DNA from: a virus
Strand: one strand, 5' to 3'
DNA length: 21,173 bases
IMG/VR virus record: IMGVR_UViG_3300021960_000630
Location: 1-21,173 of that record
In this document: positions 4,417-19,978 of the stretch, one piece after another
Position numbering within the stretch: position 1 is the first letter of the stretch
How the letters are laid out: each line of letters starts with the position of its first letter
Translations under genes and position numbers: made by a program
The notes under the pieces: model-generated
What the model was told of the DNA's origin: nothing
Database searches by the model: none
The model's input: the letters and a program-made list of their open reading frames with translations, nothing else

Positions 4417-4611
4417 ATGCCAAAATTTAAAATTGTAGGAAATAAAAAAGTAGACGGTAAAGAGCCGGGTAGCATAATCGAGATTAAGGATCTAGATAAA
4501 ATTTTAACCTTATCTAAAGCAGGCCATATAGCCGCAGTAGATAAAAAAGAAGATAAAAAGAAGATCAAAAAAGTTATAGATCATAAAGCAGAAGAGGTAG
4601 ATAATGGCTAA
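4417..4611 (+). CDS. Small basic protein of the neck region
   Basis: 64 residues: a short beta-like N-terminal half (MPKFKIVGNKKVDGKEPGSI, then EIKDLDKILTLSKAGHIAAV) and a Lys/Asp-rich tail. Similar small proteins with a 'v..g..v.G..pG..v.l.......L...G.i..v' pattern are encoded near the neck genes of many phages; they are small beta-barrel-like modules of unknown role. It starts directly after the previous stop and its end overlaps the next gene by eight bases, so it belongs to the same translationally coupled unit. Confidence 0.6.
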   Translation: MPKFKIVGNKKVDGKEPGSIIEIKDLDKILTLSKAGHIAAVDKKEDKKKIKKVIDHKAEEVDNG

Positions 4612-5329
4612 GTATGTATTTACCGACGGTAAATTATTTATTGGTGGTTACGATTTAAGCTCTCATACCAACGCAGTAACTTTAGATATTACGGCCGATG
4701 AGCTTGATGTTACAACTATTAATAGTGGTGGATTTAGGGAAAGAATAGGCGGCCTTAAAGATAGCAGTTTGAGTATCGACGGTTTTTTCGAGGCAGGCAC
4801 AGAAAAACCGGACGCTTTATTAGGAGCTAATGTAGGTAACGAGTTAATCGTTACAGTTGTACCGGACGCAGGAGTAGGAAATATAGCTTACTTCTTAAAG
4901 TCAAAACTATTTAGTTATCAAATATTTGGAGGTATTGGAGAGATCGCACCGTTTAATATTTCTAAATCAAATAGCACCGATAAAGTTGTTAGGGGTACTA
5001 TTGATATAGATAGCGCAATAACCGCTACCGGAAATAGTACAGGTGTACAATTAGGCGCCGTAGCCTCCACCGAAACAATATACGCCGCCGTACATTGTAC
5101 AGGAGTTAGCGGAACGAGTACCCCTACTATTACAATAACACTAGAGAGCGATGATAATTCTAGCTTTACTAGCCCTACAACAATAGCGACGTTTACAGAT
5201 ATAACCGCTATTAGTAGTGAGATCAAAAAAGTATCGGGAGCTATAACAGACGATTACTTCCGTTTTGCTTATACAGTAACCGGGACTACTCCAAGTTTTA
5301 ATATCCACGCTGCTTTCGGTATCGAATAA
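4604..5329 (+). CDS. Tail-tube (major tail) protein, long paralogue with C-terminal beta domain
   Basis: 241 residues. Residues 1-135 match the second tail-tube protein at 6399 throughout: 'MAKYVFTD', 'VTLDITADE', 'GGLKDSSLSID' and 'GIGEIAPFNIS' have clear counterparts. Residues about 136-241 are an extra Ig-like beta domain ('TETIYAAVHCTG', 'TITITLESDDNS', 'SPTTIATFTDIT', 'ITDDYFRFAYTVTGTTPSFN') of a kind I know as a common appendage on tail-tube proteins, exposed on the tail surface. It should form stacked rings around the tape measure. GAGG before the start is a usable ribosome site. Its downstream neighbour is the inserted cassette rather than the chaperones. Confidence 0.82.
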   Translation: MAKYVFTDGKLFIGGYDLSSHTNAVTLDITADELDVTTINSGGFRERIGGLKDSSLSIDGFFEAGTEKPDALLGANVGNELIVTVVPDAGVGNIAYFLKSKLFSYQIFGGIGEIAPFNISKSNSTDKVVRGTIDIDSAITATGNSTGVQLGAVASTETIYAAVHCTGVSGTSTPTITITLESDDNSSFTSPTTIATFTDITAISSEIKKVSGAITDDYFRFAYTVTGTTPSFNIHAAFGIE

Positions 5330-5416
5330 AAAATATTTCTTAAAACCGGAAATTTAGAAAAAGTTGGGACATAAGGTTATATAGAGGAAAAAGTAAAAGC
5401 TATATAAGGGGGTAAT

Positions 5417-5578
5417 ATGTTTTACGACTTTACTAAATGTAATTGTTGCAAAAAATATAATTGCTATATATGCAACAAACTACAACTACAACCTAAAAAA
5501 TATCACTTAACAATTAGCGGCCATAAAAAGCCAATATGCAAAAAACACTTAAACCAATTTAACCTCTTATGGGGTTAA
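5417..5578 (+). CDS. Cys-rich mini-protein, putative zinc finger
   Basis: 53 residues. Cysteines lie at 8, 10, 11, 16, 19 and 41, with His at 30, 36 and 44 ('KCNCCKKYNCYIC' then 'PICKKH'). The CxxC plus CxxH arrangement can hold one or two zinc ions. It starts at ATG behind AAGGGGGT (5406-5413), a ribosome signal shared with other cassette and downstream-operon genes. It lies upstream of the cassette promoter, so it must be read through from the structural operon or from an unseen promoter. Family unknown; DNA, RNA or protein binding are all possible. The high Cys density in a clean frame argues against a chance ORF. Confidence 0.6.
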   Translation: MFYDFTKCNCCKKYNCYICNKLQLQPKKYHLTISGHKKPICKKHLNQFNLLWG

Positions 5579-5601
5579 GTTGGAGATTAAAAAAATTATT
5601 A

Positions 5602-5638
5602 AAAAATACACCACTATTTACAAAAGTATGTATATAAT
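5602..5638 (+). promoter_or_regulatory. Promoter of the inserted cassette (copy 1)
   Basis: TATAAT at 5633-5638 is preceded by AAAAGTATG. The 37 bases ending at this -10 box match 19321-19357 at 30 positions without gaps, so this is a repeated promoter. An A/T-rich tract (5588-5608) could act as an UP element. There is no good -35 at 17 bp. The conserved ACACCA block lies about 22 bp upstream of the -10, so recognition may depend on TATG plus TATAAT or on a phage factor. The -10 lies 33 bases before the ATG at 5672. Confidence 0.75.
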
Positions 5639-5653
5639 GGTTACATAAGATAA

Positions 5654-5668
5654 ATACTTGGGAGGTAT
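5654..5668 (+). promoter_or_regulatory. Leader dyad motif containing the ribosome-binding site, forward copy 1
   Basis: ATACTTGGGAGGTAT. AATAC and GTATT arms can form a five-base-pair hairpin whose loop carries TTGGGAG, so part of the GGGAGG Shine-Dalgarno site for the gene at 5672 would be displayed in a loop. Eleven bases (ATACTTGGGAG) are exactly complementary to CTCCCAAGTAT at 6279-6289, at the 3' end of the same transcript. A near copy is at 19374 before the downstream operon. Confidence 0.7.
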
Positions 5669-5671
5669 TAA

Positions 5672-5971
5672 ATGAGTAAAAATACAGGTTGGTTTAAAAG
5701 CGAAGTTGTAGATCTAAGAAATTCTAATGTTGAATTAGATAATAATTTTAGTTGTATCTTCGGTAACAAAACTCACGTAGAAGATTTTATCGGTGGTAAA
5801 GCTACTTTTAAAATTACTTTTTTTGGAAACGAAACTAACTGCTCAACAACTTTTAGATTTCCTAAAGGTTGGACTATTAAAAAAATGTTGGAAACCGGTT
5901 TAAACGAATTAGGTTTCGAAACTACAAGACACGAAATACTCGATTGGGTACAAGTTAAGGGGGTAAAATAA
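5672..5971 (+). CDS. Cassette protein of unknown function (99 aa)
   Basis: First gene after the cassette promoter, with GGGAGG six bases before the ATG. No signal peptide or membrane segment. Residues 43-65 ('KATFKITFFGNETNCSTTFRF') read as paired beta strands, followed by 'PKGWTIKKMLETGLNELGFETTRHEILDWV', a predicted helix. This suggests a small alpha/beta domain. I do not recognise the family. It overlaps the next gene by one base (TAATG) and is expected to be made with it. The promoter-gene-gene-terminator layout inside the tail operon is that of a moron, so a role in host takeover, superinfection exclusion or counter-defence is a reasonable guess only. Confidence 0.75.
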   Translation: MSKNTGWFKSEVVDLRNSNVELDNNFSCIFGNKTHVEDFIGGKATFKITFFGNETNCSTTFRFPKGWTIKKMLETGLNELGFETTRHEILDWVQVKGVK

Positions 5972-6276
5972 TGAAAGAAAGCGCTAGTTATTTATTAGAC
6001 GATCTAAACTCTATAGATCGTAAATTAAATCGTAGGTTATCTATAGGAAAATATGAAACCTACGAAATTATTGTATTTGGTAAAGGTAAGACCGGTAAAA
6101 GTTACGGTAAGTTTGATTATCAAGACTTTTTAAAATTTGGTTTTAGCCGTAAAAATACTAGAGATCATCTAAGCAAAAAATTTATTAATAAGGATCTAGC
6201 TTATGATTGTTGGAAACTTTTAAATGATCTAGAGCTATATTCTTATGAGTTTGTTTTAAAAACTAATCGTAAATAA
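5971..6276 (+). CDS. Cassette protein of unknown function (101 aa)
   Basis: Begins at ATG behind AAGGGGGTAAAATA, the ribosome signal shared by cassette and downstream-operon genes, and overlaps the previous stop by one base. The N-terminus (1-25) is a charged helix. Residues 31-50 ('YEIIVFGKGKTGKSYGKFDY') contain GxxxxGKS preceded by a hydrophobic strand, which resembles a Walker A loop. The protein is too short for a normal P-loop NTPase and no Walker B is seen. The C-terminal half is Lys/Asp-rich and probably helical. Family unknown. The stop codon abuts the inverted copy of the leader motif at 6276. Confidence 0.75.
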   Translation: MKESASYLLDDLNSIDRKLNRRLSIGKYETYEIIVFGKGKTGKSYGKFDYQDFLKFGFSRKNTRDHLSKKFINKDLAYDCWKLLNDLELYSYEFVLKTNRK

Positions 6277-6289
6277 TACTCCCAAGTAT
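6276..6289 (+). promoter_or_regulatory. Inverted copy of the leader motif before the cassette terminator
   Basis: ATACTCCCAAGTAT is the reverse complement of ATACTTGGGAGTAT, one base shorter than the leader motif at 5654. It begins on the last base of the upstream stop codon. ATACT and AGTAT can form a hairpin with a CCCA loop, or the site can pair with the leader. TACGATA and a terminator follow, as in the sister site at 19239. Confidence 0.7.
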
Positions 6290-6301
6290 ATTACGTACGA
6301 T

Positions 6302-6330
6302 AAAAGCCGGGTTTAATCGCCCGGCTTTTT
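6302..6330 (+). terminator. Intrinsic terminator ending the cassette
   Basis: AAAAGCCGGG (6302-6311) pairs with CCCGGCTTTT (6320-6329) around an eight-base loop and is followed by a T-run, a canonical Rho-independent terminator. The A-run before the stem could also make it act on the other strand. Its stem (GCCGGG/CCCGGC) is the same as at 19264. Lying inside the tail operon, it should stop structural transcription unless this is overcome. Confidence 0.9.
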
Positions 6331-6398
6331 CTATGTCATACTACGCTCTACTAAATTGCTAATACTTACAATAAACTTAGTTAAATAAAGGAGTTAAA

Positions 6399-6806
6399 TT
6401 GGCAAAGTTTGTTTTAACAGACGCTAGCGTAACAATTAATAGCGTGGATCTTAGCGACCACGTTGCAAGCGTTACTCTAGACATAACCGCCGACGAAATA
6501 GAGGAAACCGCTTTTGGGCAAACCTTTAAATCAAGATTGGGCGGCCTTAAAGACGGATCATTAAGTATTGATTTCCACCAAGATTTCGCAGCTAGCGAAG
6601 TGGACGCAACACTATGGCCTCTTCTAGGTACCGTTACAACTTTTGAATTAAAGCCAACAAGTGGCGCAGTATCTTCAACTAACCCGAAATATAGCGGATC
6701 CGTATTGGTTAACCAACACCAACCGGTAGCTAACGGAGTTGGAGAATTGGCTAGCTTTAGTGTTAGCTTTCCTACAAGTGGCACAATAACAAGAGCTACA
6801 AGTTAA
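6399..6806 (+). CDS. Tail-tube (major tail) protein, short paralogue
   Basis: 135 residues from TTG, selected because AAAGGAG at 6387-6393 lies five bases upstream and the protein then starts MAKFVLTD, exactly parallel to MAKYVFTD of the gene at 4604. Shared landmarks are 'VTLDITADE', 'GGLKDGSLSID', a central 'tLwpLLGTVTTFEL' strand, and 'GVGELASFSVSFPTSGTITR'. It lacks the extra C-terminal Ig-like domain of the longer copy. Its position directly before the chaperone genes is the normal place of the major tail protein. Having both copies suggests a mixed tube or a division between main tube and an end ring. Confidence 0.8.
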   Translation: MAKFVLTDASVTINSVDLSDHVASVTLDITADEIEETAFGQTFKSRLGGLKDGSLSIDFHQDFAASEVDATLWPLLGTVTTFELKPTSGAVSSTNPKYSGSVLVNQHQPVANGVGELASFSVSFPTSGTITRATS

Positions 6807-7072
6807 TGTCTAAAATACAGGGGTTACACCAACTCACTCTCGTATTAGAAGACGGTACTAAAAAAGAAGTAACGTTAAGACCCGTAGACTTCGTAGCTTT
6901 AGAGAGAAAATTTGGGCAACGACCGGCAAGCGAGTTAGAAAAATTATCTTTTGAAGAGCTAATGTATTTATGTTGGAGCGCTAGTAAGCGTACCGGCGTA
7001 ACAGACGATTTCGATAAGTGGTTAAATACCGTTGCGACTATTGACGGTTTAGGTGGCGTAGACCCGGAGTAA
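6806..7072 (+). CDS. Tail assembly chaperone, short form (gpG-like)
   Basis: 88 residues, starting on TAATG overlap with the tail-tube gene. 'KIQGLHQLTLVLEDGTKKEVTLRPVDFVALERKF' followed by a helical region with 'SFEELMYLCWSASKRTGVTDDFDKWL' is the typical short chaperone of siphophage tails, resembling lambda gpG in size and position. It binds the tape measure protein during tail assembly. A second reading frame follows without a start codon of its own and is reached by a -1 frameshift near the stop (see 7045-7224), giving a longer GT form. Confidence 0.8.
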   Translation: MSKIQGLHQLTLVLEDGTKKEVTLRPVDFVALERKFGQRPASELEKLSFEELMYLCWSASKRTGVTDDFDKWLNTVATIDGLGGVDPE

Positions 7073-7224
7073 CCGGCGGCTATTATATAGAATTAATAGC
7101 CGAAGTTAGCTTAGCCGCCGGACTAAACCCTATGGAAGTAGCGGAGTTACCGTTACCTATGTTTTTAGCACTACAAAACGCTCTACAAAAAAGAGCCGAG
7201 CAGGAAAAAAAGAGATATGGCTAA
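7045..7224 (+). CDS. Tail chaperone frameshift extension (gpGT C-terminal part)
   Basis: The -1 frame relative to the chaperone gene is open from 7045 to TAA at 7222-7224. The coding part beyond the G stop reads TGGYYIELIAEVSLAAGLNP and then MEVAELPLPMFLALQNALQK plus a basic RAEQEKKRYG tail. There is no usable start codon until an internal ATG at 7132, so it is best explained as the T domain of a G-T fusion made by programmed frameshifting, as known for siphophage tail chaperones. The likely slip region is 7045-7072; a shift at CCG (7064-7066) would give ...VDPGVTGGYY. No classical X-XXY-YYZ heptamer is present. The end overlaps the next gene. Confidence 0.75.
   Translation, partial: RFRWRRPGVTGGYYIELIAEVSLAAGLNPMEVAELPLPMFLALQNALQKRAEQEKKRYG
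7073..7121 (+). promoter_or_regulatory. RNA structure downstream of the frameshift region
   Basis: CCGGCGGCTA (7073-7082) is exactly complementary to TAGCCGCCGG (7112-7121). Overlapping it, CGGCTATTA (7077-7085) is exactly complementary to TAATAGCCG (7094-7102). The two helices share 7077-7082 and so exclude each other. Both begin within a few bases of the G stop codon, the distance expected of a frameshift stimulator. The region is also coding for the T domain. Confidence 0.7.
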
Positions 7225-11291: not shown

Positions 11292-11975
11292 ATGCCTAGT
11301 GGATTTAAAACTTTCGTTACCGGAGAAGTATTAACGGCAAGCGATGTAAACAATTATTTAATGGAGCAAAGTATTTGCGTATTTGCCGACGGTACCGCAC
11401 GGGACGCAGCAATTACAAGCCCGGAAAATGGACAATTTGTATTTTTAACCGGATCCTCAACACTACAATATTATGGATCAAGTGCTTGGAATAACTTTAT
11501 AGGCGAGGGAGATATTACCGCCGTAAATACAAGTGCTACATCGGGTTTAAGTGGTGGAGCAACTAGCGGAGCCATAAATTTAGCGGTAGATCCAAGCGCA
11601 CTAACCGACGGATCCGCAATAACAGTAGATACCGCTAACGATCTATTAATTTTAGAAGATGTTACAGACGGTACAGTTTATAAAGTAAAACCTAATCAAA
11701 TAGCTAGCGGTAGTGCTAACGCTTTAGAGGACGGAGATAGCAATTTAACAATTACCGACGGAGTAACTAACGGTTTATCTTATGTCTTAGACGCTACAAC
11801 TATGGCAGATTGGGACGAGGCCGGTATTAATTTAACTACTAACGGAGGTATTTATAGACATAATCTAACTATTGCGCCTAGTTTTACAATAGCAGCAGAC
11901 GAGGGAGCAGTTTTAGCAGGTACAATAACTATTACAGGTACCGTAACGGTAAATGGCTCGTTGGTGGTTGTTTAA
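11292..11975 (+). CDS. Tail fibre-type structural protein
   Basis: 227 residues. The start 'MPSGFKTFVTGEVLTASDVNNYLMEQSICVFADGTARDAAITSPEN' followed by 'GQFVFLTGSSTLQYYGSSAW' is a module I know from many fibre proteins of environmental phages; it looks like a short trimerising or attachment domain. The rest is Thr/Ser/Gly-rich beta repeats ending in 'GTITITGTVTVNGSLVVV', a typical small fibre tip. AAGAAAGGATAAACTAAAACT provides a weakly spaced ribosome site. It ends in TAATG with the next gene. It probably belongs to the adsorption apparatus together with the genes up to 15639. Confidence 0.7.
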   Translation: MPSGFKTFVTGEVLTASDVNNYLMEQSICVFADGTARDAAITSPENGQFVFLTGSSTLQYYGSSAWNNFIGEGDITAVNTSATSGLSGGATSGAINLAVDPSALTDGSAITVDTANDLLILEDVTDGTVYKVKPNQIASGSANALEDGDSNLTITDGVTNGLSYVLDATTMADWDEAGINLTTNGGIYRHNLTIAPSFTIAADEGAVLAGTITITGTVTVNGSLVVV

Positions 11976-12166
11976 TGCCAATATTAAAAGTAAATACAAT
12001 AAGTAAAGCTACAGGAAACAATATTACTTTAAATGATCCTATAAATTTAAAAAGTTACACTACAACAGAGAGAAACGCCTTAACTTCAACCGCAGGCGAT
12101 ACAATTTTTAACAGTACAGATAATAAAGTACAATTTTATAATGGTACGAGTTGGGTTAATTTATAA
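11975..12166 (+). CDS. Stand-alone copy of the fibre N-terminal module
   Basis: 63 residues, almost entirely the 60-aa module that also begins the next two genes: 'NLKSYTTTERNALTSTAGDT' and 'KVQFYNGTSW'. Here it stops at 'VNL' instead of continuing into a glycine-rich adhesin. The module reads like a short beta hairpin followed by 'YNGTSW', a common connector in fibre proteins. Overlapping start and stop codons on both sides show it is translated in line with its neighbours. It may be a small structural subunit or a remnant of a third adhesin that lost its distal part. Confidence 0.7.
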   Translation: MPILKVNTISKATGNNITLNDPINLKSYTTTERNALTSTAGDTIFNSTDNKVQFYNGTSWVNL

Positions 12167-13149
12167 TGTCAACTTTAGAAACTAATTCTATCGGTAAATA
12201 TTCGGGCAATAATATATCTATTGATGATCCATTAAATTTAAAAAGTTATACAACAACAGAGAGGAACGCTTTAAGTGTATCTAATGGCGATCTAATTTAT
12301 AACTCAACCGAGGGTAAATTACAATTTTATAATGGTACTTCTTGGGCTAATACAAGTAATATAGAGGGTTTTGAAATTGAATATTTAGTCGTAGGAGGCG
12401 GTGGAGCGGGAGCTTATCGTTATGACGCTCAACGAGCAGCAGGAGCAGGCGGAGCAGGTGGTTTTAGAAATTCAACTACAGGAGAGGAAAGCGGTTACCC
12501 TATGACCGATCCCGAGCAAAAATATATAGCAGCAATTTCAACTAATTATACGGTTACAGTTGGCGCAGGTGGTACAGGAGCTATTTACGGTGGTACAAGT
12601 GGTAACGATAGCCAATTTAGTATAATTGTAGCCGCAGGCGGAGGCCGTGGATCTTCTGCTTTTACAGGAAGAGCGGGCGGTATTTCGGGTAGTGATAAAA
12701 CTACCGTTGGAAGTGGCGGAGGAGGCCAAATAGGATCCTATAACTCGGGCGATGATCGAGGAGGCGGTGGCTCATACGGGCAGGGAGCCTCGGGATCATC
12801 TAGAGGCGGTGGAGGCGGAGCAGGCGCCGTAGGTACTAACCCAACAGGAGGAGCCGGAAAAAGTAGCGCTATTAGTGGATCTTCTACAACTTATGCTACA
12901 GGTGGTACCGGAAATAATAATAACGCAGGATCGGCAAATACAGGCAACGGAGGGGGCAGCTCGACAAGCGACGGGGGCGGTGGATCCTCGGGTAATGGTT
13001 ACGCAGGTGGCAGCGGTATAGTAATTTTAAAATATCCGGATAGCTATAGTATTAGTGGCGGAGCAGGTTTAACATCTTCTACAACAACTTCGGGAGGTTA
13101 TAAAATTACTACTTTTACCGCAGGAACAGATACAATATCTTTTAGTTAG
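12166..13149 (+). CDS. Glycine-rich tail adhesin 1
   Basis: 327 residues. Residues 1-60 are the shared module. Residues 68-300 begin 'EIEYLVVGGGGAGA', include 'YTVTVGAGGTGAIYGGTSGN' and 'FSIIVAAGGGRG', continue in Gly-rich runs (DDRGGGGSYGQG, SRGGGGGAGAVG) and close with 'GGSGIVILKYP'. This matches glycine-rich fibre tips known in phages, where polyglycine-II helices pack as a sandwich and surface loops contact the receptor. Residues 299-327 are a beta tail (GAGLTSSTTTSGGYKITTFT...) repeated at the end of the next gene. Its coding DNA is locally GC-rich because of Gly codons. Confidence 0.82.
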   Translation: MSTLETNSIGKYSGNNISIDDPLNLKSYTTTERNALSVSNGDLIYNSTEGKLQFYNGTSWANTSNIEGFEIEYLVVGGGGAGAYRYDAQRAAGAGGAGGFRNSTTGEESGYPMTDPEQKYIAAISTNYTVTVGAGGTGAIYGGTSGNDSQFSIIVAAGGGRGSSAFTGRAGGISGSDKTTVGSGGGGQIGSYNSGDDRGGGGSYGQGASGSSRGGGGGAGAVGTNPTGGAGKSSAISGSSTTYATGGTGNNNNAGSANTGNGGGSSTSDGGGGSSGNGYAGGSGIVILKYPDSYSISGGAGLTSSTTTSGGYKITTFTAGTDTISFS

Positions 13150-13155
13150 GAAAAT

Positions 13156-14214
13156 ATGAGCAGAATTAATACAAATACAATAGCAACAAGCGACGGAAAT
13201 AATGTAGCTTTAGATAGTGCTTTAAATTTAAAAAGTTATACTACTACACAACGTAACGCCTTAACTTCAACTGCGGGAGATATGATCTACAATACTACCG
13301 ATAATAAAGTACAAACATATAACGGTAGTAGTTGGGACGATTTAGGTAACCCTTTTACCGATATAGATTTTTTAGTTATAGCCGGTGGAGGAGCGGGCGC
13401 TTTTAATGATAACGGCGGAGGTTATGCCTCCGGTGGTGGTGGCGCAGGAGGTTATAGAACTTCTTACGGTACCGGTAACGTTAGCGGAGGTAGTAGCCCG
13501 GTTGAAACTGCTTATAAAGTTTTAGTAGACGGATCTACTACATACACTATTACTATAGGCGCCGGATCTAGTACCTATAGACAACCCGCTAGTAATAGTC
13601 AATTTGCCGATATAATATCTTATGGTGGAGGCTCTAGCGATAGAAACAATAGTTTTAATGGTAACAATGGAGGCTCGGCGTCGGGTGTAACAGGTTTTCC
13701 AAGTAGTAATATAGGTTATGGTTTAGCCGGACAGGGTAGTAATGGTGGCGCCTCGTCAACCGCAGGCGGAGGCGGAGGCGGAGCAGGAGGGGTAGGAGCT
13801 AATGCTACTAGCCAAACTGCACCGGGAGCCGGTGGTACCGGTTTATCTTCATCTATAACAGGATCCGCAGTAGATAGAGCCGGCGGAGGCGGAGGCGGAG
13901 CAGGCGGCACAGGAACAGGAGCAGCAGGAGGCACCGGAGGAGGTGGAGCCGGAGCTAATGGGACTAATAACGCTACAGTTGGTAATACAGGTACCGCAGG
14001 TACAATTAATACCGGCGGAGGCGGAGGCGGTGGATCCGGTGGAACTAGCGCAGGATCAATAGCTAACGGTGGTAGTGGTGTAGTAATTTTAAGATATGCT
14101 ACCGCAGACGCAACTATTTCTATTGGAGCAGGTTTAACAAGTACATCTACTACAGACGGTAGCGACACTATAGTTACTTTTACGGCCGGTACAGATACGG
14201 TAACTTTTAGTTAA
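13156..14214 (+). CDS. Glycine-rich tail adhesin 2
   Basis: 352 residues with the same plan as adhesin 1: shared module (1-60), 'DIDFLVIAGGGAGAFND', a strand block 'YTITIGAGSSTYRQPASNSQ', long Gly-rich part, 'GGSGVVILRYA', and a 29-residue tail close to that of adhesin 1 ('GAGLTSTSTTDGSDTIVTFT'). The Gly-rich middle is not alignable run by run with adhesin 1, so the two probably recognise different targets or are diverging. AGGA overlapping the previous stop serves as ribosome site. GGCGGA tandem triplets at 13765, 13882 and 14014 are possible recombination points. Confidence 0.82.
   Translation: MSRINTNTIATSDGNNVALDSALNLKSYTTTQRNALTSTAGDMIYNTTDNKVQTYNGSSWDDLGNPFTDIDFLVIAGGGAGAFNDNGGGYASGGGGAGGYRTSYGTGNVSGGSSPVETAYKVLVDGSTTYTITIGAGSSTYRQPASNSQFADIISYGGGSSDRNNSFNGNNGGSASGVTGFPSSNIGYGLAGQGSNGGASSTAGGGGGGAGGVGANATSQTAPGAGGTGLSSSITGSAVDRAGGGGGGAGGTGTGAAGGTGGGGAGANGTNNATVGNTGTAGTINTGGGGGGGSGGTSAGSIANGGSGVVILRYATADATISIGAGLTSTSTTDGSDTIVTFTAGTDTVTFS
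13765..14031 (+). repeat. GC-rich GGCGGA tandem triplets inside adhesin 2
   Basis: Three consecutive GGCGGA units followed by GCAGG occur at 13765-13787 and again at 13882-13904. A third near copy is at 14014-14031 (ending GGCGGT). Spacing is 117 and 132 bases, both multiples of three, so unequal exchange would keep the reading frame. They encode runs of glycine. Confidence 0.8.
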
Positions 14215-19148: not shown

Positions 19149-19238
19149 ATTAGATTTAAAAATATAGAGATACTATATTTAATTAAAGTATTAATTCAAA
19201 GATCGCACCCTTAAATTAATAAATACTAAGACGTAGAA

Positions 19239-19252
19239 ATACCCCCAAGTAT
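19239..19252 (+). promoter_or_regulatory. Inverted copy of the leader motif before the late-region terminator
   Basis: ATACCCCCAAGTAT, the reverse complement of ATACTTGGGGGTAT. It precedes CTACGATA and the GCCGGG terminator, the same order as at 6276. The variable position carries C here, matching G in the leader at 19374, while at the cassette it is T matching A. The rest of the 19149-19389 gap holds only A/T-rich DNA, the terminator and the promoter; no gene is seen. Confidence 0.7.
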
Positions 19253-19263
19253 ACCTACGATAC

Positions 19264-19298
19264 AAAAAAGCCGGGGATCCGCACAACCCGGCTTTTTT
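19264..19298 (+). terminator. Intrinsic terminator after the lysis genes
   Basis: AAAAAAGCCGGG (19264-19275) pairs with CCCGGCTTTTTT (19287-19298) around an 11-base loop, followed by CTTTTT. Strong Rho-independent terminator, with the A-run before the stem making it potentially bidirectional. It separates the structural/lysis transcript from the downstream operon and shares its stem core with the one at 6302. Confidence 0.92.
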
Positions 19299-19320: not shown

Positions 19321-19357
19321 AAATTGACACCATTATTTAAAAAAGTATGCCTATAAT
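19321..19357 (+). promoter_or_regulatory. Promoter of the downstream operon (copy 2)
   Basis: TATAAT at 19352-19357 with AAAAGTATG just upstream and TTGACA at 19324-19329. The spacer between them is 22 bases, too long for standard sigma-70 promoters, so TTGACA may be fortuitous. The alignment with 5602-5638 is gapless, 30 of 37 identical, and TTG is among the non-conserved positions. The -10 lies 32 bases before the ATG at 19390. An A-rich tract lies upstream. Confidence 0.8.
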
Positions 19358-19373
19358 ACCTATATAAGAAAAA

Positions 19374-19387
19374 ATACTTGGGGTATT
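19374..19387 (+). promoter_or_regulatory. Leader dyad motif containing the ribosome-binding site, forward copy 2
   Basis: AATAC (from 19373) and GTATT arms flank a TTGGG loop; the GGGG Shine-Dalgarno bases are partly in the loop. The same leader text, TATTAAATGA, follows at both strong copies. The inverted partner at 19239 lies on the other side of the terminator and promoter. Confidence 0.7.
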
Positions 19388-19389
19388 AA

Positions 19390-19746
19390 ATGAACATAAC
19401 AAAAGATATAATCAAAAAATTTGAGGATAAAGGTTATACCTTAGAAACTACTAAGTTAGATGATGATTATACAAGACTTATGGGTTTATCTTCTAACCCT
19501 TTAGATTTACCAATTATTGAACAAAAAGAAATTACAACTACTTATAAATTAAACTCAACTAAAAGAACTATATATTATTTCTCTAATAACGATAACGTAT
19601 TTGAAATTAAAGAATTGGTAACAAGTGGTTATACCAATTTATCTAATGGTAAGTTAAGAAAAATTAATACTACTCAATACGAAATAGAATTTAACTACGA
19701 AAAATATAGTTTAAAAAACCTAAAAGTATTTTTAGGTATAATCTAA
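19390..19746 (+). CDS. First gene of the downstream operon, unknown function (118 aa)
   Basis: No signal or membrane segment. Residues 1-20 are a basic helix (MNITKDIIKKFEDKGYTLET). Residues 44-125 of the chain are dominated by alternating beta-type text ('EQKEITTTYKLNSTKRTIYY', 'VFEIKELVTSGY', 'QYEIEFNYEKY'), so a mostly beta fold is likely. Lys, Asn and Thr are abundant and the codons are more A-rich than in structural genes. I do not recognise the family. As the first gene after a strong promoter it is expected to be highly and probably early expressed; candidates are a host-takeover or regulatory protein, without direct evidence. Confidence 0.72.
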   Translation: MNITKDIIKKFEDKGYTLETTKLDDDYTRLMGLSSNPLDLPIIEQKEITTTYKLNSTKRTIYYFSNNDNVFEIKELVTSGYTNLSNGKLRKINTTQYEIEFNYEKYSLKNLKVFLGII

Positions 19747-19771: not shown

Positions 19772-19978
19772 ATGGAGATACGATCACAAAAAAGATTTTA
19801 TCTTACTACAGATACAGTAACTTATATAAAGTGCGGTAAATGTTATAACTATCTAGCTAAAAGTTGGAATAAAAATAATGTGCCACGCTGCGGTAATTGT
19901 ATTTCTATTAAAGATAAATATAGCGATAGTTACTATTTAGATACTATTGCTTATGCTAGGAAAGGGGGTATTTCGTGA
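19772..19978 (+). CDS. Small zinc-ribbon protein
   Basis: 68 residues with two Cys pairs, C21-x-x-C24 ('KCGKC') and C40-x-x-C43 ('RCGNC'), 15 residues apart: a classical zinc-ribbon knuckle arrangement. Flanks are Tyr- and Lys-rich. It has an AAAGGGGGTAATTT ribosome signal. Such small ribbons in phages often bind nucleic acid or host RNA polymerase parts, but the family cannot be named. The last bases overlap the GTG of the next gene. It could be functionally parallel to the Cys-rich protein at 5417, though the two do not align. Confidence 0.7.
   Translation: MEIRSQKRFYLTTDTVTYIKCGKCYNYLAKSWNKNNVPRCGNCISIKDKYSDSYYLDTIAYARKGGIS

Follow-up and report, generated by a model that had tools for sequence, protein, structure and literature searches.

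A moron slot between two phage tail-tube genes, with cassettes that resemble miniature early operons and carry putative SD/anti-SD pairs

In the viral DNA analyzed here (21,173 nucleotides, IMG/VR record IMGVR_UViG_3300021960_000630; hereafter the window), the junction between the genes for two tail-tube proteins, MTP1 and MTP2, is almost certainly a moron slot, that is, a docking site for accessory genes inside the late operon. The cassette found there, like others in the near clade, reads as a miniature early operon, with what appears to be a copy of the early promoter and leader at its start and a copy of the late-end hairpin and terminator at its end. Its first SD is complementary to the loop of the hairpin that precedes its terminator, consistent with control by RNA pairing. 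We put the probability of this explanation as a whole (slot, miniature early operon and SD/anti-SD control) at roughly 0.6. On this explanation, the control bracket would remain fixed within the late operon as small accessory genes are exchanged inside it. The cassette itself is of a known kind, a moron, and the SD/anti-SD bracket is the new part.

The description of the cassette as flanked by two tail-tube paralogues holds, as both proteins match PHROG families (Table 1) and are 38% identical to each other. Between their genes lie ORFs of 53, 99 and 101 aa. Relatives gathered through the MTP2 protein amounted to 80 loci, 78 of which contain both tube genes and represent 52 distinct slots; MTP1 was found wherever the contig of a relative extends that far. 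The gap between MTP1 and MTP2 ranges from 57 to about 1590 bp across these slots, compared with at most 75 bp, hardly variable, at the other adaptor-to-TAC junctions of the same loci (117-234 for the TAC-neck gap). Ten distinct slots are empty, with spacers of 57-63 bp, and about 32 cargo families were distinguished among the ORFs of slots that measure 250 bp or more. Base composition also differs from that of the flanks, with a slot G+C of 0.29 versus 0.365 (36.5%) for the window.

Between phages with 95-100% identity in the flanking tail genes, cargo is absent, replaced or rearranged. For example, loci L003 and L014 are 99% (MTP1) and 100% (MTP2) identical in their flanks at the DNA level, and their slots measure 824 and 264 bp, the former carrying A99 (the 99-aa ORF of the window) and a 66-aa gene and the latter having no cargo; L007 and L011 have flanks that are 98% and 99% identical and different cargo. 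Presence, absence and replacement of cargo were thus all seen at this junction, in agreement with the first-pass annotation, which had read the cassette as moron-like, with a promoter and a terminator of its own. The opposite expectation, that the genes occur in all relatives and co-vary with the tail genes, fails on these near-identical flanks with different cargo. The idea that the cargo supplies the virion or tail with accessory proteins and co-varies with the tail genes draws on its location within the tail module, but we regard it as extremely improbable, because near-identical tail genes occur with or without cargo and homologues of cargo lie in the early region; moreover, no match to a tail family was found.

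Another possibility is that the slot tunes tail-tube stoichiometry, with the promoter, terminator and insert length setting the MTP1:MTP2 ratio and the ORFs being incidental. This would fit the constant position of the slot between two tail-tube paralogues and the several slots (L014, L044 and L064) that have a promoter-like site and a terminator without an ORF. However, ten distinct slots are no more than short empty spacers, the cargo has good SDs, intact reading frames and homologues at other places, and A99 morons are found at other sites in unrelated phages, making a role in stoichiometry very improbable. Separately, the slots of L053, L054 and L047 contain hundreds of bases without good ORFs, and those of L053 and L054 share a conserved stretch beginning GTTGTTAATCAGGTGACAACTT; tRNA and Rfam searches of these odd slots gave no match, and they possibly hold an unknown structured RNA. 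The L011 slot (about 4863-6374) has two early-type SD elements (in the 5091 and 5713 regions), the second of which precedes a copy of the first early gene of another phage, and is a set of tandem cassettes.

Table 1. Features of the tail-tube junction and of the late/early operon boundary in the window.
Feature	Position	Strand	Remarks
MTP1, long tail-tube protein, left slot border	4604..5329	+	phrog_9522, E 1e-43
53-aa Cys-rich protein	5417..5578	+	ORF; SD AAGGGGGTAA; upstream of cassette promoter
Cassette promoter block, ends in -10 TATAAT (5633-5638)	5608..5638	+	no consensus -35 at 17 nt
SD hairpin AATAC-TTGGGAG-GTATT, A99 SD in loop	5653..5669	+	z -2.3; conserved in relatives
A99, mobile moron gene	5672..5971	+	44-100% identity among 17 loci listed, of which some share a contig
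B101, orphan cargo gene	5971..6276	+	only in contigs identical to window
Anti-SD hairpin, loop CTCCCAAGTAT (6279-6289)	6268..6295	+	just before cassette terminator
Intrinsic terminator GCCGGG-TTTAATCG-CCCGGC-TTTTT	6306..6330	+	8-nt loop; predicted
MTP2, short tail-tube protein, right slot border	6399..6806	+	phrog_4574, E 4e-36
Late-operon-end anti-SD hairpin CGTAG-AAATACCCCCAAGTATAC-CTACG	19232..19259	+	z -6.9
Late-operon terminator	19270..19298	+	predicted
Early-operon promoter block (TATAAT 19352-19357)	19327..19357	+	same as cassette promoter
Early-operon SD element AATACTTGGGGTATTA	19373..19389	+	complementary to both anti-SD loops
Early gene, 68 aa	19772..19978	+	73%-identity homologue is cargo in L003 tail slot

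Because a generic promoter/terminator scan found neither cassette signal, and no excess of sites over shuffles in the window, comparison must decide on these signals. The window has exactly two copies of the promoter block ACACCAYTATTTAMAAAAGTATGNNTATAAT, one before the cassette and one before the early operon (0.00 expected in shuffles), although this pattern was derived from its two sites and alignment of the leaders against background is the fairer test. In that test, the cassette leader (5603-5674) and the leader of the early operon (19322-19392), which begins past the lysis genes, were 79% identical, and their alignment score of 41.5 was far above the maximum of 15.5 among 5,996 background windows. 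A canonical TTGACA-17-TATAAT form of the early promoter was ruled out, as the spacer is 22 nt. The predicted terminator, taken with the hairpin before it, gave a folding z of -5.2, and most relatives of the near clade that bear cargo have a promoter-to-terminator layout at this position too; some cassettes of the distant clade (L039-L084) have no terminator. These results support both signals that had been assigned to the cassette. Its extent, on the other hand, needs revision: the unit running from promoter to terminator (about 5608-6330) is upheld, whereas the whole interval 5330-6398 is not, since the Cys-rich gene that had been grouped with the cassette lies upstream of the promoter, is present only in contigs identical to the window and is missing from the slots of the nearest relatives. 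We therefore regard this gene as a separate acquisition.

The early operon shares genes as well as signals with the slot. The second cargo gene of L003 is a homologue of the window early gene at 19772, and the fourth cargo gene of L011 matches the first early gene of L087, L089, L091 and L092 at 95-98% identity. The region past the lysis genes in relative G003 encodes replication initiator, ParB-like and WhiB homologues, a set that usually makes up an early module. Comparison of the loci shows, at the level of predicted elements, that promoter and leader are shared, that cargo also occurs in early operons and that the hairpin-terminator is conserved, and early-type expression of the cassette appears likely. 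Host RNA polymerase would then transcribe it early, without dependence on tail-gene transcription. A point against our explanation is that a terminator in the middle of the operon leaves expression of MTP2 and of the genes downstream unaccounted for; we assume that these would be reached by read-through or antitermination. Like the morons of lambdoid phages, the cassette consists of extra genes with a promoter (here a predicted block common to the early operon) and a predicted terminator of their own, inserted between late genes that lie side by side in relatives, and its G+C content is below that of its surroundings. Unlike lambdoid morons, it has promoter and cargo in common with the phage's own early operon and is bracketed by an SD/anti-SD pair.

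The loop of the hairpin preceding the cassette terminator is a perfect 11-nt complement of positions 5654-5664, which hold the A99 SD, and at the end of the late operon the hairpin loop is likewise complementary to the SD that serves the first early gene. SD elements number one to three per genome. Across relatives, the two partners change together (ACUUGG/CCAAGU, ACUUAGG/CCUAAGU, ACUAGG/CCUAGU and GCUUAGG/CCUAAGC). In 20 pairs, uninterrupted pairing beside the GG/CC core averaged 6.7 of 8 nt between an element and its own partner, compared with 1.06 when partners were swapped between sequence classes. None of 20,000 permutations was as good as the observed pairing. The genomes are related, however, so that this permutation count overstates independence, and there are only four SD variant classes; with six class representatives, 4 of 720 permutations were as good. 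In scans of whole records, by manual count, an early-type SD was the best + strand target for 12 of 17 anti-SD loops and was among the top three for 16 of them. A generic anti-SD sequence pairs with any SD core, which weakens the case, and the claim depends on the flanking ACUU(A)/UAAGU. The match is also imperfect in places: in the scan, the G004 cassette hairpin failed to select the SD of its own cassette, the L038 cassette has no SD/anti-SD pairing, and complementarity in the distant clade (L039-L084) is short or missing. L014, which has neither cargo nor SD, also lacks the CCC loop and keeps the terminator. As a further observation, the left half of the late-end loop (GAAATACCCCC) perfectly complements the SD GGGGGTATTTC of the early gene at 19975 (19951-19975), and one late-end loop may thus address two early genes.

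The hairpin stems bear on whether these elements act as RNA or as DNA. As automatic alignment of the hairpins was out of register, stems were compared by script, and the outer stems of 19 hairpins show compensatory changes between genomes (CGTAG/CTACG, CGTGA/TCACG, GCGAT/ATCGC, AGTGAT/ATCACT, TACTT/AAGTA and TATGTA/TACATA), although several of these stems are not rare when compared with shuffled flanks. L5-type stoperators of actinobacteriophages are a known precedent for repressor sites, and the paired elements could in the same way be DNA operators of a phage repressor, placed at early starts and terminators, with sequence classes that track repressor specificity. The SD element has a partly palindromic core (AATAC...GTATT) with few other occurrences, as an operator might. 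Nevertheless, we think an operator function unlikely, because all hairpin copies are antisense to the SD copies, the outer stems covary in the manner of RNA stems, it is hard to see what purpose a repressor site would serve at a terminator, and the sites of L096, L098 and L104 have only the CCUAAGUAAC part in common, without a palindrome.

The positions of the elements raise a second alternative, namely that they are inverted terminal repeats or homology arms for cassette exchange and have no part in regulation. Around the cargo they form inverted repeats, and near relatives lose homology just inside them; in one clade, the left boundary is close to the start codon and the right boundary is at the hairpin. 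In addition, the C termini of five last cargo proteins, unrelated to one another, are R-N or R-K because the stop codon lies within the hairpin stem. However, at the late end/early start the pair stands in the opposite order and flanks no cargo, and the position of the element is exactly that of an SD, a few nt ahead of a start codon. The slot also contains no transposase or recombinase. An inverted-repeat mobile element was likewise ranked low. We therefore judge a purely recombinational role improbable, and note that the elements could provide homology in addition to regulation.

Returning to RNA pairing, we lean slightly toward a functional SD/anti-SD interaction. The anti-SD loop would pair with the SD of the first gene and block ribosome loading. 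In the cassette, such pairing would occur in cis, within one transcript; at late-operon 3′ ends it would occur in trans with early-type mRNAs as late transcripts accumulate, so that early-type and cargo genes would be shut down as late RNA builds up. More tentatively, this may amount to a phage-wide antisense translational switch, in which late and cargo transcripts would end in hairpins whose loops form kissing contacts with SD loops in early and moron mRNAs and turn early-type genes off. The loops of such a switch would be YUNR-type U-turns (UUAG, UUGG and CUAG), and morons would be pre-wired units inserted into the circuit. If the pairing is real, it would account for the regulation of a moron out of step with its neighbors, provide an RNA-only early-to-late switch in phages, and offer a concrete test for the repeated elements of cluster K mycobacteriophages described below, which can be grown in a laboratory host.

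Antisense RNAs are known to control phage gene expression, among them P1 C4, P22 sar and lambda OOP, and the C4 RNA is complementary to a ribosome binding site. The likeness lies in an RNA complementary to a phage mRNA, but those are dedicated RNAs, whereas the antisense here would be the 3′ end of protein-coding operons. An Rfam search yielded no family at gathering score, and the C4 covariance model was unmatched. In the icaR mRNA of S. aureus, the 3′ UTR motif UCCCCUG pairs with the SD and hinders initiation (PMC3868564). Similarly, the sequences described here have a conserved, C-rich 3′-UTR motif that complements the SD of its own predicted transcript. In contrast to icaR, the motif lies in a predicted hairpin loop just before the terminator, is repeated at the end of the late operon and covaries among phages.

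The start-associated sequences (SAS) of cluster K mycobacteriophages contain an SD, are of unknown function and have been contrasted with L5-type stoperators; four K1 phages have one reverse-orientation copy away from gene starts (PMC3203893). The ESAS of cluster K phages contain putative promoters (PMC11373665). As here, a conserved SD-containing element lies a few nt from the starts of selected non-structural genes, and one copy only has the reverse orientation; in Adephagia, this copy forms part of the loop of a long hairpin. The SAS, however, is a 13-bp sequence, GGGATAGGAGCCC, at 11-19 genes per genome, compared with one to three elements of unrelated sequence here; the window has no such repeat at many gene starts, and ACTTGGGAGGTATTA occurs in it once. 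The reverse SAS of Adephagia (JF704105, about 58,682-58,694; L126:34683-34695) occupies the apical loop of its hairpin, which is conserved in many mycobacteriophage records, and a transcript across it would be expected to expose an anti-SAS. Among the K2-K8 phages examined, the right ends yielded no + strand anti-SAS copy. K1 mycobacteriophages may have a convergent version, an anti-SAS hairpin, and we treat the Adephagia parallel as a lead and not as a demonstration.

A99 is not confined to the tail-tube junction. Copies are found at three or more different late-module sites, and relatives with 47-64% identity occur in phages whose structural proteins are only 21-40% identical. The copies of L137-L143 lie upstream of a tail-terminator/protease/major-head block and those of L144 and L146 after the head-tail adaptor; where this was read (L137, L140, L143 and L146), the copies have their own promoter-like site and terminator. 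By eye, the copies of L137-L146 appear to be leaderless, with the start codon about 7-10 nt past a -10-like site.

The first-pass annotation recognized no family for the three proteins, and searches of A99, B101 and the Cys-rich protein against Pfam, PHROGs and NCBIfam likewise gave nothing usable, nor did PADLOC, which covers defense and not counter-defense proteins, return a match. A PDB sequence search with the A99 alignment found no match, and the AF2 model of A99 (pLDDT 72) had no match with E <0.001 in BFVD or PDB; its best VIA-align structural rows were to the N-terminal region of AcrIF24, with a Z of 5.2 that is within noise. The B101 model (pLDDT 46) was unusable. The sole cargo with a clear function is a Dam-type DNA adenine methyltransferase in the slots of L049 and L052, which stand for one relative (PF05869, E 2e-19). 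Such enzymes can shield phage DNA from restriction, making anti-restriction a possible role for this cargo. We consider host takeover or counter-defense the most likely service of the cargo in general; for A99 and B101 this assignment is a guess, one that we put slightly below even odds for A99.

The host is probably a small AT-rich actinobacterium, because a relative with 76% MTP2 identity lies on a 29.7-kb contig that has been placed in a Candidatus Actinomarina genome and, among isolated phages, Pontimonas phage phiPsal1 is the closest by MTP2 (52%). The slot-bearing group as a whole consists of AT-rich phages, probably of actinobacteria. Another relative from the same search, however, was binned as Flavobacteriaceae. 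A DNA similarity search against isolated phages found no match. The Actinomarina-assigned relative has a 45-aa CxxC cargo gene in its slot, and phiPsal1 has a single annotated tail-tube gene.

Two further observations concern the tail genes that follow the slot in the window. At 6806-7222, an ORF in frame 0 ends at 7072 and the -1 frame continues to 7222, and this region likely encodes a tail assembly chaperone with a -1 frameshift. Farther downstream (11973-14042), consecutive tail-fibre-like genes contain three 188-nt direct repeats and glycine-rich coding runs.
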